Below are positions 37,155 to 60,666 of a stretch of 64,000 nucleotides of DNA, piece after piece. Below the pieces are notes generated by a model that saw only the letters and a list, made by a program, of their open reading frames with translations, ran no database searches and had not been told where the DNA came from. Each line of letters starts with the position of its first letter. Positions within the stretch are counted from its first letter, which is position 1. Position numbers and translations under genes: made by a program. Source of the DNA: Polytrichum commune (lineage: Eukaryota; Streptophyta; Polytrichopsida; Polytrichales; Polytrichaceae); contig OX485803.1 in assembly GCA_950295325.1 (NCBI GenBank), positions 15,934,001 to 15,998,000 of the forward strand, written 5' to 3'.

Positions 37155-37157
37155 TAA

Positions 37158-37745
37158 GGGCCGGTTTATACCATGGACCATGAAGTCGGACCATGGAAGA
37201 TGGCCTTTTTCCATGGTCCAACTTCATGGTCCAACTACCATGGTCCGAATTCTTTAAAAAGGAAATTTACAAAGCGTTTGGGCCCCTCCCTAAGTTTAAA
37301 TTGAATGTGGACCAAGAGGAACGACCATGCACCAAAAAATGAATGTGTTGATTTTTTAACATATGCCCAAAAAGGGTAGTTTTGGGAAAAAAGAAAAAAA
37401 GAAAAAAAAGAAAAAAAAAGAAGTTTGACCAGTCTTTTGTCTTGTCTTGTCTTCATCTTCTCCTCTCCAAAAAAAAATTCATTAAAATTTTATATTACAA
37501 CATTGTTCTGCGATGGGCCCCTATCTTTTTCTTTCTACCAGAGCACCTCTTTTGCCTCTCCAAACACAAAATCCGTTGGACCATGTCAATGGATGATGTA
37601 GGCCTTTAAATATGTCTTTCGGAGATCTCGAACTTCATGGTCACTCTGACATTCTTTCCTGGTCTTGGGACGAGTTGAATAGCCAATCACGGATTTTACA
37701 GGGCCTTGGGAGCACGACTTCATGGTCCATGGTGTAAACGGGCCC
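37158..37745 (+). mobile_element. Harbinger-like MITE, TAA family, copy 3 (next to metallothionein promoter)
   Basis: It is 588 bp and starts GGGCCGGTTTATACCATGG. It ends GTGTAAACGGGCCC with TAA flanks (37155-37157, 37746-37748). It ends about 160 bp upstream of the metallothionein TATA-like box. Confidence 0.88.
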
Positions 37746-37907
37746 TAAAGAGTGGAGTTTGAGCCCGTGCAATAGCTTTCGTGTCCGTAGCAAGGGAGGG
37801 TGGTGGCCCACGCGCCATAACCTTCGGAGCTAGAGGATGTAGGCAGCTAGGAGTCTATGGAGGTAGGCAGAGAGGGCCGGGGACCGGCTATGGCGAGGCC
37901 CGCAAGG

Positions 37908-37917
37908 AAATAAAAGG
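37908..37917 (+). promoter_or_regulatory. TATA-like box of the metallothionein-like gene
   Basis: An AAATAAAAGG motif lies about 340 bp before the start codon. It is followed by a pyrimidine/CA-rich leader and a GA-rich tract, as expected for a plant 5' UTR. I see no ATG between about 37940 and the start codon. The transcription start (about 37940) is inferred. Confidence 0.45.
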
Positions 37918-38251: not shown

Positions 38252-40239
38252 ATGTCTTGCGGCTGTGGGTGCTGCCCCAAGTGCGGCTGCCGCGCCACCT
38301 GCACGTAAGACGACGGCTATCACCGGCGCTCAGGCCCCTCGAGTGGTATCTCGCGTAGATCTTTCGTCAGAATCAGAAGTGGTGGGAGCTTAGTTTCAGA
38401 AGAATTGAAAGGTGGCAGTTTAGTTTAGTTTAGTGGCGGTCACTGGAGGTTGAGAGTAGGCTTATGGTACACGGTGTTATGGAGTAATTTGTGATGAAGC
38501 CGGGGAATTGGCTCAGGAATCAGCGGCGGACGCAGCGACGTGTGTGTGTGTGTGTGTGAGGGCGAGATTTGTTGGTGTTGTTTTATGTTGGTTATGAGAG
38601 GCTGGAGAGGATTTTAGTATGGTTTGAGTCTTTGGATTCTCATGGGAGGTTGCTGGTGTGCTTGTGTGTGACAGCTGCAACCGGAATTCGTGGTTGAACG
38701 AGAACATGGCAGGATACAGGTATACTTCTCTCCATCAGATCATGCTCATGGTTTGATATTAGAGGAAACTGAGGAGAAGACTCTGAATTTTTTATACATG
38801 TCTGCTCTTAGCCTGCCATACAGGTAGATAGGTAGGTGATTAGACATGCATATCTCGCCCTGTGATACATGGCCAGATCATCCGTCATGCTCATAGTTTG
38901 CTCTGGTTTGCGAGGAAATTGAGCAAAGTCCAAGAGGTCGTGCTCGGTCTCCATGTCTTCCATGCAGGAAGATTTGAAACTTGATGGCCAGATCATAACG
39001 ATGCTCATAGTTTGGTTTGATTTGACTCTCACATCTCAAGTCTTTATGTCCGGTTTTAGCCTAATACCATCCATGCAGGAGATTAGCCCGAAATTAGAAA
39101 CGTATAGCTCGCCCTGTCATGGCCAAATTATGATGCTGACGATCACGTGTTGAGAGGAAATTTAGGAACGCTGCATTTGAATTCATTGTCTATGCATCTT
39201 TGTATGGCTAACATGATGCGCTTTGTGGTTGTGGTGTATGTCATAAACTACAGCAACATGATGACCGTGGCCGGAGAGACCGGCAAGTGCGGAAACTGCA
39301 ACTGCCCCGCAGGGACCTGCGCCAAGGAAGGCTCGAGCGAGTCTTTCTTCTCCGTAGCCGGTGAGAACGGCGGCAAGTGCGGCAACTGTGACTGCCCCGC
39401 AGGCACCTGTGCCAAGGAGGGATCCGGCCAGTCTTCCTACTTCTCTGTCGCCGGTGAGACCGGCAAGTGCGGAAGCAACTGCAACTGCCCTGCTGGTAAG
39501 TCCATACAACAACAACACCTCTCTCTCTCTCTCTCTCTCTCCAAATTCCCCCGGGCTAATTCTGGAAATTCAATATTTGCGTACTTCTCACGCATCCATC
39601 ACGGCACCTTCCATGGGTTAGGTTGTTAACGAGTCCTTCGCTATTAGAAGCTGAAACAATGCATTCTTTTCGCTAACCCATGATTTCACTGACACTAATA
39701 CCGTATAGTGATGTCTAGTTCAACACTTTGAGTGCTGATTTCTACGCAAGAACCAACATGTGAATAGAACACGTGGCTCTTATTTTTTACTTCCAAGAGA
39801 GACAAGTTGTAGCATGAATAAGGAATTCTAGAACTAGAAATTCAGTTCTTGCGTGCTTCCAAGTTCATATACATCCATCACAGCACCTTTCATGGGTTTA
39901 GGTTGGTAGCGATCGAGTTTCTGGCTTGCCAAAAGCTTTCATACAGCTCTTTTTTTTTCATTAGCCTCCTGATTTCGATACTCAAATTCTGTCTCCTCCA
40001 TGAAGTTGTAGCAAGAATCAGAAATTCGGAACAGAGTAGATATGCTCGACCTCATGATGACTTGGCAGAGGCTTTACTTGATTGAGCGAGTTTTGGTGTT
40101 TTGTGATGTTGGCTGAAATTAATGAAAAAGTGAACTGATGAATTGGGGAATTATGGCAGGAACCTGCGTAAAGGAGGGATCCAACACCGGCAAGTGCGGC
40201 AACTGTGACTGCCCAGCCGGCACCTGCGCCAAGGAATAG
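38252..40239 (+). CDS. Metallothionein-like protein with four repeated Cys modules (3 exons)
   Basis: Predicted exons 38252-38304, 39254-39495 and 40160-40239 join with GT-AG introns (donors GTAAGA and GTAAGT) into a 124-aa protein with 23 cysteines. Exon 1 gives a compact Cys-rich head (Cys 3, 5, 7, 8, 11, 13, 17). Then come four modules of the form C-x2/3-C-x-C-P-A-G-T-C-x-K-E, at about residues 30-43, 60-73, 90-104 and 111-124. Modules 1-3 each follow a VAGE spacer, and module 4 a short SNTG linker. Cys-rich clusters of this kind bind d10 metals (Cu, Zn, Cd) through thiolates in the cytosol; that role is inferred. The plant type 1-4 metallothionein layouts I know do not have four such modules. 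The upstream frame is open but has no in-frame ATG, so 38252 is the start. Intron phases are 2 and 1, and the second intron splits module 3. The gene is convergent with the APR-like gene. Confidence 0.9.
38700..39160 (+). repeat. Diverged tandem units inside metallothionein intron 1
   Basis: Three imperfect units share the phrases CCAGATCAT, ATGCTCATAGTTTG and CTCGCCCTGT, with GCAGGA or a close variant between them. The spacing is roughly 110-150 bp. They lie wholly inside intron 1, so the reading frame is not affected. Confidence 0.6.
39569..39905 (+). repeat. Direct repeat inside metallothionein intron 2
   Basis: A stretch of about 60 bp near 39569-39627 recurs at about 39839-39905. Shared strings include CATCCATCAC, GGCACCTT or AGCACCTT, and CATGGGTT(T)AGGTTG. 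A CT microsatellite sits just before the first copy (about 39518-39541). Confidence 0.6.
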
Positions 40240-53858: not shown

Positions 53859-54945
53859 TCATGAAGGTTTATTTGGGTTGACGGTGTCAGCTACAGATTG
53901 CGCAGCATTGCTGACAGCATCCCCAACCTGTGAAGAAGAATTCGCACAAGTGTTACATTATCACATGACTGCAATGTGCATAATCCCAACAGAGATACAG
54001 AAGGCAAAGATGGCAAACAGGTGTACAAACAGACAGAGGTGGCCACAGCAGATTTACTTAAATTTCTTTTACTGAATGTGCCAGTAATGCTTAATAATAC
54101 CTGCTGAAGCACATTGCCAGTGCCCTCTTTGGCTTGGCCAGCTTTGTCTTTGGCAGCCTGGGCGGTGTCTGAGGTGGCCTGTTTCGTTTGCTCCCATTTC
54201 TCTCCTGCATAATTCCCAGCTTCACTGCTCTTCTGTTGCGTCGCCCCGGCTACATCGGAGGCTTTGTCTTGGACTGCTCCAGCAGCATTCTGATCACGAA
54301 CAAATACCACCATCAAGCACCAAAATCAAATGAACCGAAGAAATCAGGAGCATACCATGGAATCTACAGCATACCATGGCATTTCCGACCAACCACCATA
54401 ACCCACCCAAGTAGCAGAAAATGTAAAAAATAACAACAAGTGTACCGGGGGTTGCAAAAATCTATAATAGAGCATACCATGGCATTCAAAGACCGCGCAT
54501 TCCTCCTGACAAGCTGTTGATTAATTGTAAACAGAACGATGTAACAAATGAACCAGAAATTAATAGAACAGAAAAAGCATCACAACAGATGAAGAGGAGA
54601 ATTGCACAGATTTAGAGCATACCATGGCATTTCTGTCCAACTACCATAACCCACCAAGTACTTACAAGCAGAAATGTAATTTCATAACAAGTGTACAGGA
54701 GAAATGCAGAAATCTACAGTAGAGTATACCATGACATTCAGACACCGCCCATTCATCCCGACAGGCTGTTGATTAATCATAAACAGAACGGGTTGACGAG
54801 GTGAAAGCTACTGATGCCCAGGCATAACTGTTAAAATTGGTACCTTCGTTGCGTCTTGAGCTTCCCCAGCCTTTTGCTGACCGTAATTCTTGGTCTCCTC
54901 GCTCTTTTGAGCTGCAGCGTTCTTGGTATCGTCGTAGCTCGACAT
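53859..54945 (-). CDS. LEA protein, group 3-like, short paralogue (3 exons)
   Basis: Minus-strand exons 54945-54844 (34 codons), 54289-54101 (63 codons) and 53927-53859 (22 codons plus stop) join with phase-0 GT-AG introns into a 119-aa hydrophilic protein. It is rich in Ala, Lys, Gln, Asp and Glu and has no Cys. The stretch TAQAAKDKAGQ (residues 76-86) is very close to the canonical 11-mer of group 3 LEA proteins. These proteins are disordered in water and fold into amphipathic helices on drying, protecting proteins and membranes. The C-terminal exon (GDAVSNAAQSVADTV) aligns with that of the paralogue at 58302 (GDAVANAYQSVKDKV). The start is fixed by the identical 34-codon first exon in both genes. 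It is transcribed away from the second LEA gene. Confidence 0.88.
54369..54800 (-). repeat. Tandem duplication of about 247 bp in LEA (short) intron 1
   Basis: The string AGCATACCATGGCATTTC at about 54369 recurs at about 54616. Both are followed in order by CCATAACCCACC, AACAAGTGTAC, and a CTGTTGATTAAT...AAACAGAACG block. Both units lie inside the first intron (54290-54843). Confidence 0.8.
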
Positions 54946-58301: not shown

Positions 58302-60666
58302 ATGTCGACCTTTGACAATGCCAAGGACACCACCGCACAGAAGGCCGAGGAGGCCAAGAGCATGGGCCAGGAGAAGGCCGGACAGGCTCAGGGCAGCGCC
58401 GAGGTATGAATTCGCACTAGTAGAGCCCCATCCATGTCTTGTTTGGGGCTACAACAAATTTCGGAGTAACTTGTGAGACTCTCGTGGAAATTCACGGAAA
58501 TGGTGCATAGAAATCTTTCTTCCTTTCTCTTTGCCGGTTAGAGTTGAGGAGCTGAAGACACTGTGTAGGGAGTCCAATGTAGCACTTTGGAATCCTACAC
58601 GCTCCTCTCCTTTCACGCAAGAGTTCTCCAAATTGATCCACGAATGCCAAGTCATGAACTTGGGGATGCGTGCTGAATCCTGGATTTTGGATTTTCTGTC
58701 GTACCGACTTTTGCAAATTTTGTATGTTGTCCTGGCACTTAACCCGAAGAGAATGTAACCGACCAAAATGGAATCTTACTCGTTCCTCACTCACAGAGCT
58801 CACCAAATTAGATTGCGACTGGAAACCAAGAGTGGCAATTGGTAAACTTGGGATGCGTGCAGAATCAACTCTGGAATCCAGGATCTCATCGTGTTTTGTA
58901 AAGTTGTTCAAAATTTGCATCATCTGTGCTGAAGAGAGTTGTGTCCTTCCTCACACACCTTCTACACCTTCCTCGCTCACAGATTTCCAAATCGATCCAC
59001 AATTTTCGAAACGTAGAGTGGGCAGTGGTAAATTTGGGATGTGTTCAGAATGCTTATAATCAAAAAATCTGTTGTCCCGCTTCTTGCTTACGTCTGCAAG
59101 TATCCAAAACTTCTTAAATGTTTGGTCCGGAGTTTCTCAAACCTCGACCCTGATGGAATGGAGTAATGTTGTTTGTATGTATGTATAGAGTGCTGCCGGG
59201 ACTGCCCAAGACAAGGCAGGAGAAGCGGGCAACTTCGCAGGATCCAAGTACCAGGACGTCAAGGGCGCAGCCGGTGACGCCGCAGGATCTGCCCAAGACA
59301 AAGCAGGCCAGGCCACAGATTATGCAGGGAGCAAGGCCGACGACGCCAAGTCGGCCGCTTCTGACACCGCGGGAGCCGCCAAGGACAAAGCGGGAGACGC
59401 CACCGGTGCCGCACAAGACAAGGCAGGCCAGACCGGGAATTTCTTGGGCGACAAATGGGAGCAGACGAAGCAAACTACCGCGGATTCCACCGGAGCCGCT
59501 CAGGACAAGGCTTCCGATGCCGCTGGCGCTGCCCAGAATAAGGCCGGCGACGCTGTGGATTATACCAAGGACTCTGCTAACTCTGCTTCCCAAATGGCTA
59601 CCGAGAAAGCCACCCAGGCCAAGGATGCCGCCGGGAGTGTCCTCCAGCAGGTAGGTTTCGCCAATTGTTTCGGTTGCACCATAGCTGCTTCAATCTTCTT
59701 CCCAACCCTTCCTCCGAGGTTTTGATCCTCATCTGTGAAATCTGGATTGGGGTAGAAAGTGAGGTGAATGTTTGGGTCTCGGTGCGACATTCTTAGTATG
59801 TTGGCCTGAAATTGAGTATAACCCAAATGGTTGCCCAGAAGGCTAACCGAAGTTGAATCTTCTTCAGTCGGTGAGTGAAAATGGTCGGGATTTGGAGTTT
59901 AAGCCTTCAACCGAGTGAACGCTACAACCAAATCCATCTTCTTCGGTTAATATCATCTTTCACTTCAAAATTTGAACGGTATGAAAAAGAAAAGTCTGGT
60001 GAAATGTTTGGGTGTCGTCCCGACATTCTTTGCATACTTACTTGAATTTGCTTGGACATGCTGTATTGCATCCCATATGGTTGCCGATAAGGCTAACCAA
60101 GCCGGGAGCGTCCTTTAGCAGATAAGATTCAGCAATTGTTTCGATTGAACCATAGTTCAGAGTTATGCTTGAATCTTCTTCTGTCAGTGTGAAAATTCTC
60201 GGGTGTCGGAATTGAATTTACCTTCAACTTGGAAAATTCCAAAGTCTGCCGGGAAATCGGTCTTCGTCTGTGAACTCTAAAATCTGAACATTCCTAATTA
60301 CTTTAACTTGTGGGGGATTCAATTCTTTCTTAGGCATCCTGAGATTTGCGCTGTCTGAACATAGAGCTTTACTTCTTTGAATCTTATCTAGGGCGTACTA
60401 CTGATATATTCTGTGTGCTCACTTGAATTTGTGAGGGTTACATTCTTTCTCGGCCATTGCTGAGATTTGGGTGGGGTGAATGTTTGGGTATTTTAAGATT
60501 ATGATACTCTTGACGTCATTGCCTGAATTTGTGAGGGGCTCGTTCTTTCATGGTGACGATACTTGCTAATATATTCGTGCTGTCTGTAACCATGGTTGTG
60601 CAGACTGGTGATGCTGTGGCCAATGCCTACCAATCCGTGAAGGACAAAGTGACCCCACAGCAGTAA
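58302..60666 (+). CDS. LEA protein, group 3-like, expanded paralogue (3 exons)
   Basis: Exons 58302-58403 (34 codons), 59189-59650 (154 codons) and 60604-60666 (20 codons plus stop) join with phase-0 GT-AG introns into a 208-aa protein. It is hydrophilic, Cys-free and dominated by Ala, Lys, Asp, Gln and Gly. Exon 2 contains repeated cores of the type A-A/Q-D-K-A-G/S at about residues 40, 70, 99, 110, 139 and 150, the 11-mer-like pattern of group 3 (LEA_4-type) proteins. A KWEQTKQ block (123-129) is shared with the short paralogue at KWEQTKQ 65-71. Exon 2 is 91 codons longer than in the paralogue, so growth occurred by internal repetition. The expected role is desiccation or osmotic protection in the cytosol or an organelle; no clear targeting signal is visible. 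ACGTGGC and TACGTGAC motifs upstream fit ABA control. An AATAAA lies at 60933. Confidence 0.9.
58550..59060 (+). repeat. Three diverged tandem units in LEA (expanded) intron 1
   Basis: Units at about 58550-58740, 58745-58930 and 58930-59060 each carry a CTC(A/G)CTCAC or CTCCTTTCAC lead, then TCCAAATTGATCCA or a variant, then AACTTGGGATGCGTGC or a variant followed by AGAATC or TGAATCC. They lie inside intron 1 (58404-59188). Confidence 0.65.
60077..60170 (+). pseudogene. Decayed duplicate of LEA exon 2 end inside intron 2
   Basis: The block GCCGGGAGCGTCCTTTAGCA matches the end of exon 2 (59631-59650), but with CAG changed to TAG and the donor changed to ATAAGA. What follows (CAGCAATTGTTTCGATTG, then an ACCATAG string and TTGAATCTTCTTC) matches the first bases of intron 2. 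This is therefore a tandem copy of an exon-intron junction, about 471 bp downstream. The preceding phrase KANQAGSVL is still readable. Confidence 0.75.

Follow-up and report, generated by a model that had tools for sequence, protein, structure and literature searches.

We analysed a 64,000-nucleotide stretch of the Polytrichum commune genome (the window; C1:15,934,001-15,998,000) and describe here a metallothionein-like gene that lies within it (gene A; Table 1), together with three paralogs found elsewhere in the genome (genes B, C and D). The assembly comprises 407.8 Mb in 64 contigs, of which C1 to C7 (42-78 Mb each) together account for about 406 Mb; the smaller contigs span 10-147 kb (13 measured). 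The gene is real. Its reading as a functional nuclear gene of four exons, encoding a modular plant metallothionein in which a head and a row of bead-like modules would bind metals, has in our estimate a probability of about 0.8.

The product proposed in an earlier note on this DNA was obtained by joining three protein-coding blocks (exons 1, 3 and 4 of Table 1), which indeed splice in frame to give 124 amino acids with 23 Cys. That model omits an exon of 45 nt (exon 2), which is frame-neutral and was recognised by its conservation in all four paralogs: an exon of 45 or 48 nt with AG/GT borders and phase 2-2, encoding CNRNxW..., occupies the same place in each of the three paralogs of A. Because all four copies retain exon 2 and the splice sites that flank it, gene A most likely comprises four exons and encodes a product of 139 amino acids with 24 Cys (17%) and no His. 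The 7-Cys head described earlier thereby becomes a head of 8 Cys, the eighth being contributed by exon 2. Pairwise alignments of this exon outscored shuffled sequences in all six paralog pairs (z 5.1 to 10.7). The same procedure gave z values of -2.3 to 3.4 for the introns (18 comparisons, at most 200 nt per intron after trimming), -0.6 to 0.9 for the 200 nt upstream of the ATG (6 comparisons) and -0.5 to 4.2 for 150 nt of 3' flank (6 comparisons). Intron phases (2, 2, 1) and splice-site positions are identical in the four genes, and every intron has the form GT...AG. Position 38252 is the first in-frame ATG; upstream of it the frame stays open but contains no Met.

The head of A follows the pattern C-x-C-x-C-C-x2-C-x-C-x3-C-x-C. 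After a short stretch without Cys come tandem modules of four Cys each, with the form C-x2/3-C-x-C-P-A-G-T-C; the linkers between them are short and rich in Ser and Gly, and often read SVAGE(T/N)G. All four repeated modules that had been predicted are found in the spliced translation, and the last intron does lie inside module 3, as had been claimed. In each of the four genes this intron interrupts the last module but one, within the codon for the Gly of PAGTC; in D that module is the only intact one. A search of the six frames of the window with C-x(2,3)-C-x-C-x(4)-C returned five matches, three of them in gene A (module 3, which the intron interrupts, escapes the count); 20 single-base shuffles of the window gave 0.3 matches on average and 2 at most. 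Tandem Repeats Finder delimited a 90-bp unit, present in 2.5 copies, at 39265-39490. The head and every module contain C-x-C, C-x-x-C or C-C motifs, as broad compositional definitions of metallothioneins require, and similar Cys modules stand in tandem, in numbers that vary between related genes, as in modular (domain-repeat) metallothioneins. The earlier description of the protein as metallothionein-like and modular is supported. Intragenic concerted evolution of the modules was also considered and was set aside, the difference not being significant (p 0.19).

Table 1. Gene A, its paralogs and the features upstream of it (window positions unless a contig is named)
Feature	Position	Strand	Description
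Exon 1	38252-38304	+	start codon and head Cys 1-7 (MSCGCGCCPKCGCRATC); donor CAC/GTAAG; CGCCPKCGCRATC in 4/4 paralogs
Exon 2	38675-38719	+	45 nt, phase 2-2, CNRNSWLNENMAGY, head Cys 8; in 4/4 paralogs, introns not alignable
Exon 3	39254-39495	+	modules 1, 2 and most of module 3; SVAGE-type spacers; 90-bp unit
Exon 4	40160-40239	+	end of module 3 (remainder of Gly codon, then TC), linker VKEGSNTGK, module 4, stop codon TAG
Head segment of gene A			CGCCPKCGCRATCTCNRN
Module 1	39288-39320	+	CGNCNCPAGTC
Module 2	39378-39410	+	CGNCDCPAGTC
Module 3, first part	39468-39495	+	CGSNCNCPA and first base of Gly codon; split by intron 3; whole module CGSNCNCPAGTC
Module 4	40195-40227	+	CGNCDCPAGTC; within exon 4
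TATA-like ATAAAAG	37910-37916	+	candidate core promoter, read by eye
Element with terminal inverted repeats	37157-37746		590 bp, ends 505 bp before ATG; outside gene
Gene A	C1, window gene	+	4 intact modules
Gene B	C1:15.866 Mb	-	3 intact modules
Gene C	C7:24.946 Mb	+	4 intact modules
Gene D	C7:24.873 Mb (within C7:24,871,000-24,876,000)	-	1 intact module, full 8-Cys head

The exons of the four genes were found by a protein search of the genome. A further search with C as the query returned the same four genes and one match of 23% identity (E 0.29); since such searches give lower bounds, the family has at least four members. All four heads read CGCCPKCGC, none contains CCC, and none of the four proteins contains His. 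D has an open frame and a complete 8-Cys head, its first module keeps one Cys (three of the four are lost) and its last module none, and the function of this copy may have been lost or altered. Exon 3 is longer than that of B by 99 nt in A and by 87 nt in C, that is by about one unit (29-33 codons) each, which fits either a gain in A and C or a loss in B. The term "expanded", used in the earlier note, holds when the module count is compared with the seed-plant types or with the sister gene B, which has three modules; it does not fix the direction of the change. That the four copies carry one, three or four intact units suggests that the capacity for metals can be altered one unit at a time.

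The two gene pairs, B(-)...A(+) on C1 and D(-)...C(+) on C7, match in orientation, and duplication of an inverted gene pair was considered; it is unproven. Outside the metallothionein genes, the matches listed between the flanks of the two pairs (the best 60 and the best 40, rather than whole intervals) are short, many occur at multiple sites, and they involve ten stretches of C7 and three of C1. We read them as repeats.

The pattern of substitution points to constraint on three of the four copies. For the pairs among A, B and C, the nonsynonymous and synonymous divergences (dN/dS) were 0.076/1.62 (A-B, third positions accounting for 49 of the 64 differences), 0.107/1.61 and 0.118/1.94, so that the substitutions in these genes are mostly silent. 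The pairs involving D gave 0.311/1.46, 0.168/1.01 and 0.252/0.87, and this gene is less constrained (dN 0.17-0.31); dN was lower than dS in all six pairs, which, like the shared gene structure and the contrast between exon and intron conservation, speaks for a real gene. These values are approximate, because modules that are not orthologous may have been paired when the repeats were aligned two by two, and because dS (0.87-1.94) approaches or exceeds saturation.

Repeat-built metallothioneins are known in tunicates, fungi and snails. Growth by modules is reported as established for fungi (PMC4755600, PMC12508003), snails (PMC7084494) and Oikopleura (PMC8283569), and for snails and Oikopleura, related genes or populations are described as differing in how many repeated domains they encode, much as the paralogs do here. 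These two are animal families. The domains of Oikopleura are described as having 12 Cys; those of snails are reported to bind 3 Cd each, and the snail genes with 9 and 10 domains to be intronless. The copper thioneins of fungi (Cryptococcus CnMT1/2 and Tremella TmMT) likewise carry tandem Cys units in one polypeptide, and their reported unit CXCX3CSCPPGXC resembles C-x3-C-S-C-P-A-G-T-C, the form that the last module takes in both B and C, although the fungal units have 7 Cys and the modules described here 4 (PMC4755600). This resemblance is probably convergent. Among the open-licence papers listed in our literature searches (at most 30 per search) we found no description of a repeat-built plant metallothionein.

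Plant metallothioneins are reported to have usually two Cys-rich regions, or three in the Ec type (PMC6269658). The present family shares with types 1, 2 and 4 (Ec) the alternation of Cys-rich regions and Cys-poor linkers, and differs from them in having five Cys-rich regions, no His and, for A, B and C, no score that reaches the cut-off of PF01439 or PF02068. In place of the two Cys-rich regions of types 1-3 there is an 8-Cys head followed by four 4-Cys modules; the three Cys regions, the two conserved His and the profile match of type 4/Ec are all missing. The N-terminal CGxCDC-x5-C-x-K of type 3 (AtMT3; the sequence used here, like that of AtMT2a, is provisional) resembles the CGNCDC-x4-C-x-K of the modules, yet type 3 has such a region once, with a separate C-terminal Cys region, whereas here it is repeated and accompanied by the 8-Cys head. 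In an alignment test whose null keeps the Cys positions, the scores of the modules of A, B and C with this AtMT3 sequence were reached by 3, 3 and 8 of 1000 shuffles, and a single-pair BLASTP of A with the same sequence gave E 6e-4. AtMT2a gave no signal with any of the four paralogs (123-380 of 1000 shuffles); for AtMT1a the counts were 4 and 18 of 1000 with C and D, but as high as 215 for A and 225 for B.

More distant relatives were also sought. Searches of the PDB yielded no significant relative, and two phmmer matches (E 0.45-0.46, an estradiol dehydrogenase) were taken as chance. The viral contigs and the bacterial and archaeal genomes contained 98 and 88 pattern stretches, none of which was confirmed as a relative, so that a recent transfer from the searched prokaryotes is not supported.

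Metallothionein folds depend on metal. The cysteine-rich protein of gene A very likely binds metals, to judge from its predicted sequence, and its thiolates would be expected to take up d10 ions, namely Cu(I), Zn(II) and Cd(II). A single cluster would form in the head, and small clusters, either of the M(Cys)4 type or shared, in the modules, so that a molecule would hold about 6-9 divalent ions. Unequal exchange or slippage within exon 3 could add or remove a unit and shift this capacity stepwise. The four paralogs, with 1, 3, 4 and 4 intact modules, would make a natural series within one genome for asking whether capacity scales with module number.

The metal-handling background of the genome bears on what such a protein would do. 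An exon-wise profile search of the genome gave no match to PF05023 of phytochelatin synthase (PCS), and two matches of about 15 bits to the PCS C-terminal domain (PF09328), below the 25-bit cut-off. By the same method glutathione synthetase had six matches on C1. A nicotianamine synthase match was present in an open frame of 395 residues (C4:11,912,553-11,913,515, minus strand; E 9.1e-60); this enzyme is reported to have been acquired horizontally in mosses, with a gene named PolNAS in Polytrichales, and to occur also in other mosses, Blasia, ferns and seed plants (PMC12454661). Phytochelatins were reportedly not detected under Cd in Polytrichastrum formosum, Hypnum and Fontinalis (PMC10049163). 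P. patens is described as seemingly without a PCS gene, and three of its four metallothionein-like genes as conferring Cd resistance in yeast (PMC8070800); its metallothionein genes are reported to respond chiefly to Cd, not Cu (PMC9824710). Metallothionein A probably buffers Cu and Zn and detoxifies Cd in the cytosol of a plant whose genome yielded no phytochelatin synthase, and the modular family may bear on metal handling in mosses without phytochelatins.

Several observations weigh against the reading of gene A as a modular metallothionein with such a role. The third donor of B is GTTCGA, unlike the usual GTAAGT form. The Pfam scans, which covered A, B and C, gave no match for A and B (E<=10); PF01439 (plant types 1-3) matched none of the three proteins, nothing else in the genome and nothing in the control genomes, and the best result for PF02068 (type 4/Ec) was a sub-threshold PEC match of C (10.4 bits, cut-off 31.8). 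In a control, PF01439 recognised the AtMT2a sequence at 1.7e-30 and gave that of AtMT3 only 12 bits; the profile thus barely responds to type 3, and little weight attaches to the lack of a match. The similarity to type 3 is itself weak, was measured against a provisional sequence and does not extend to D, whose score was reached by 214 of 1000 shuffles. The absence of PCS rests on the exon-wise profile search, in which neither PCS model matched any of 14 control genomes, and among other mosses Sphagnum palustre is reported to make phytochelatins and Leptodictyum riparium to show PCS activity (PMC10049163). Finally, extra modules may leave the cellular capacity unchanged.

The alternatives to this reading differ in what they put in question. 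One of them, concerned with novelty only, holds that these are ordinary bryophyte "type 1" metallothioneins, with a head-plus-modules layout present in most mosses and nothing expanded. We regard it as a serious possibility, if one somewhat short of even odds. Bryophyte metallothioneins have been called poorly known (PMC10049163), and the moss sequences, including those of P. patens, are all termed type 1 while being heterogeneous in the number and arrangement of Cys (PMC8070800); an old standard family would be in keeping with four copies that are old and, in three cases, under strong constraint. The Physcomitrella proteins (PpMT1.x; Pakdee et al. 2019, via PMC8070800) are Cys-rich and form a four-gene family, as here, in a plant that likewise seems to lack PCS. 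Compared by description only, however, the P. commune proteins stand apart by their tandem PAGTC modules and by the missing Cys-Cys-Cys at the N-terminus, which in that source defines subtype 1.2 and is found in none of the four heads; moreover, intact module counts differ inside one genome. Other mosses may share the head-plus-modules layout. At the opposite end lies the proposal that this is the first repeat-modular metallothionein family of land plants, independent of the fungal and animal ones, with a conserved head and a tail of 4-Cys beads altered by one exon-3 unit at a time, which serves as the main high-capacity Cd/Cu chelator after loss of PCS in the moss lineage; taken as a whole, we consider this unlikely.

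Two further alternatives concern the product itself. Skipping of exon 2 would always preserve the frame in all four paralogs (45 or 48 nt, phase 2-2), and alternative splicing could then yield both the 124-amino-acid protein with a 7-Cys head and the 139-amino-acid protein with an 8-Cys head. We found no evidence of skipping, however, and the exon is conserved with both splice sites in four of four genes, as would be expected of a constitutive exon, which makes the use of both forms distinctly improbable. It would be more surprising still, to a degree that we give this explanation very little credence, if gene A encoded not a metal chelator but a repeat-containing, disulfide-rich peptide that is secreted for defence or signalling. 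Multi-domain secreted peptides with repeated Cys units are on record (PMC6262176), but the N-terminus of A (MSCGCGCCPKC) shows by eye no hydrophobic signal peptide, and the C-x-C, C-C and C-x2-C spacing is that of metallothioneins.

The region upstream of gene A contains the 590-bp element listed in Table 1, whose 32-nt terminal inverted repeats are 94% complementary. Among 40 scored sequences of 3289 first-look candidates, 39 other copies were identified on C1-C6 (74-80% identical over most of the query), and the element apparently belongs to a family of non-autonomous DNA transposons. The promoter motifs GTAC, TGCRCNC and ACGTG showed no pattern common to the four paralogs within 1 kb upstream: GTAC occurs once in B and three times in C, and is absent from A and D; TGCRCNC occurs three times in C and ACGTG three times per strand in B, each being absent from the remaining genes.

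Elsewhere in the window, two related open frames were observed at 53891-54325 (minus strand) and 59189-59725 (plus strand). The latter gave a LEA_4 match of 22 bits (Pfam cut-off 51.1), the former no match. A third relative lies at C1:16,001,342 (plus strand), just outside the window, and others on C7, C3 and C6. The arrangement is probably a local LEA-like cluster.
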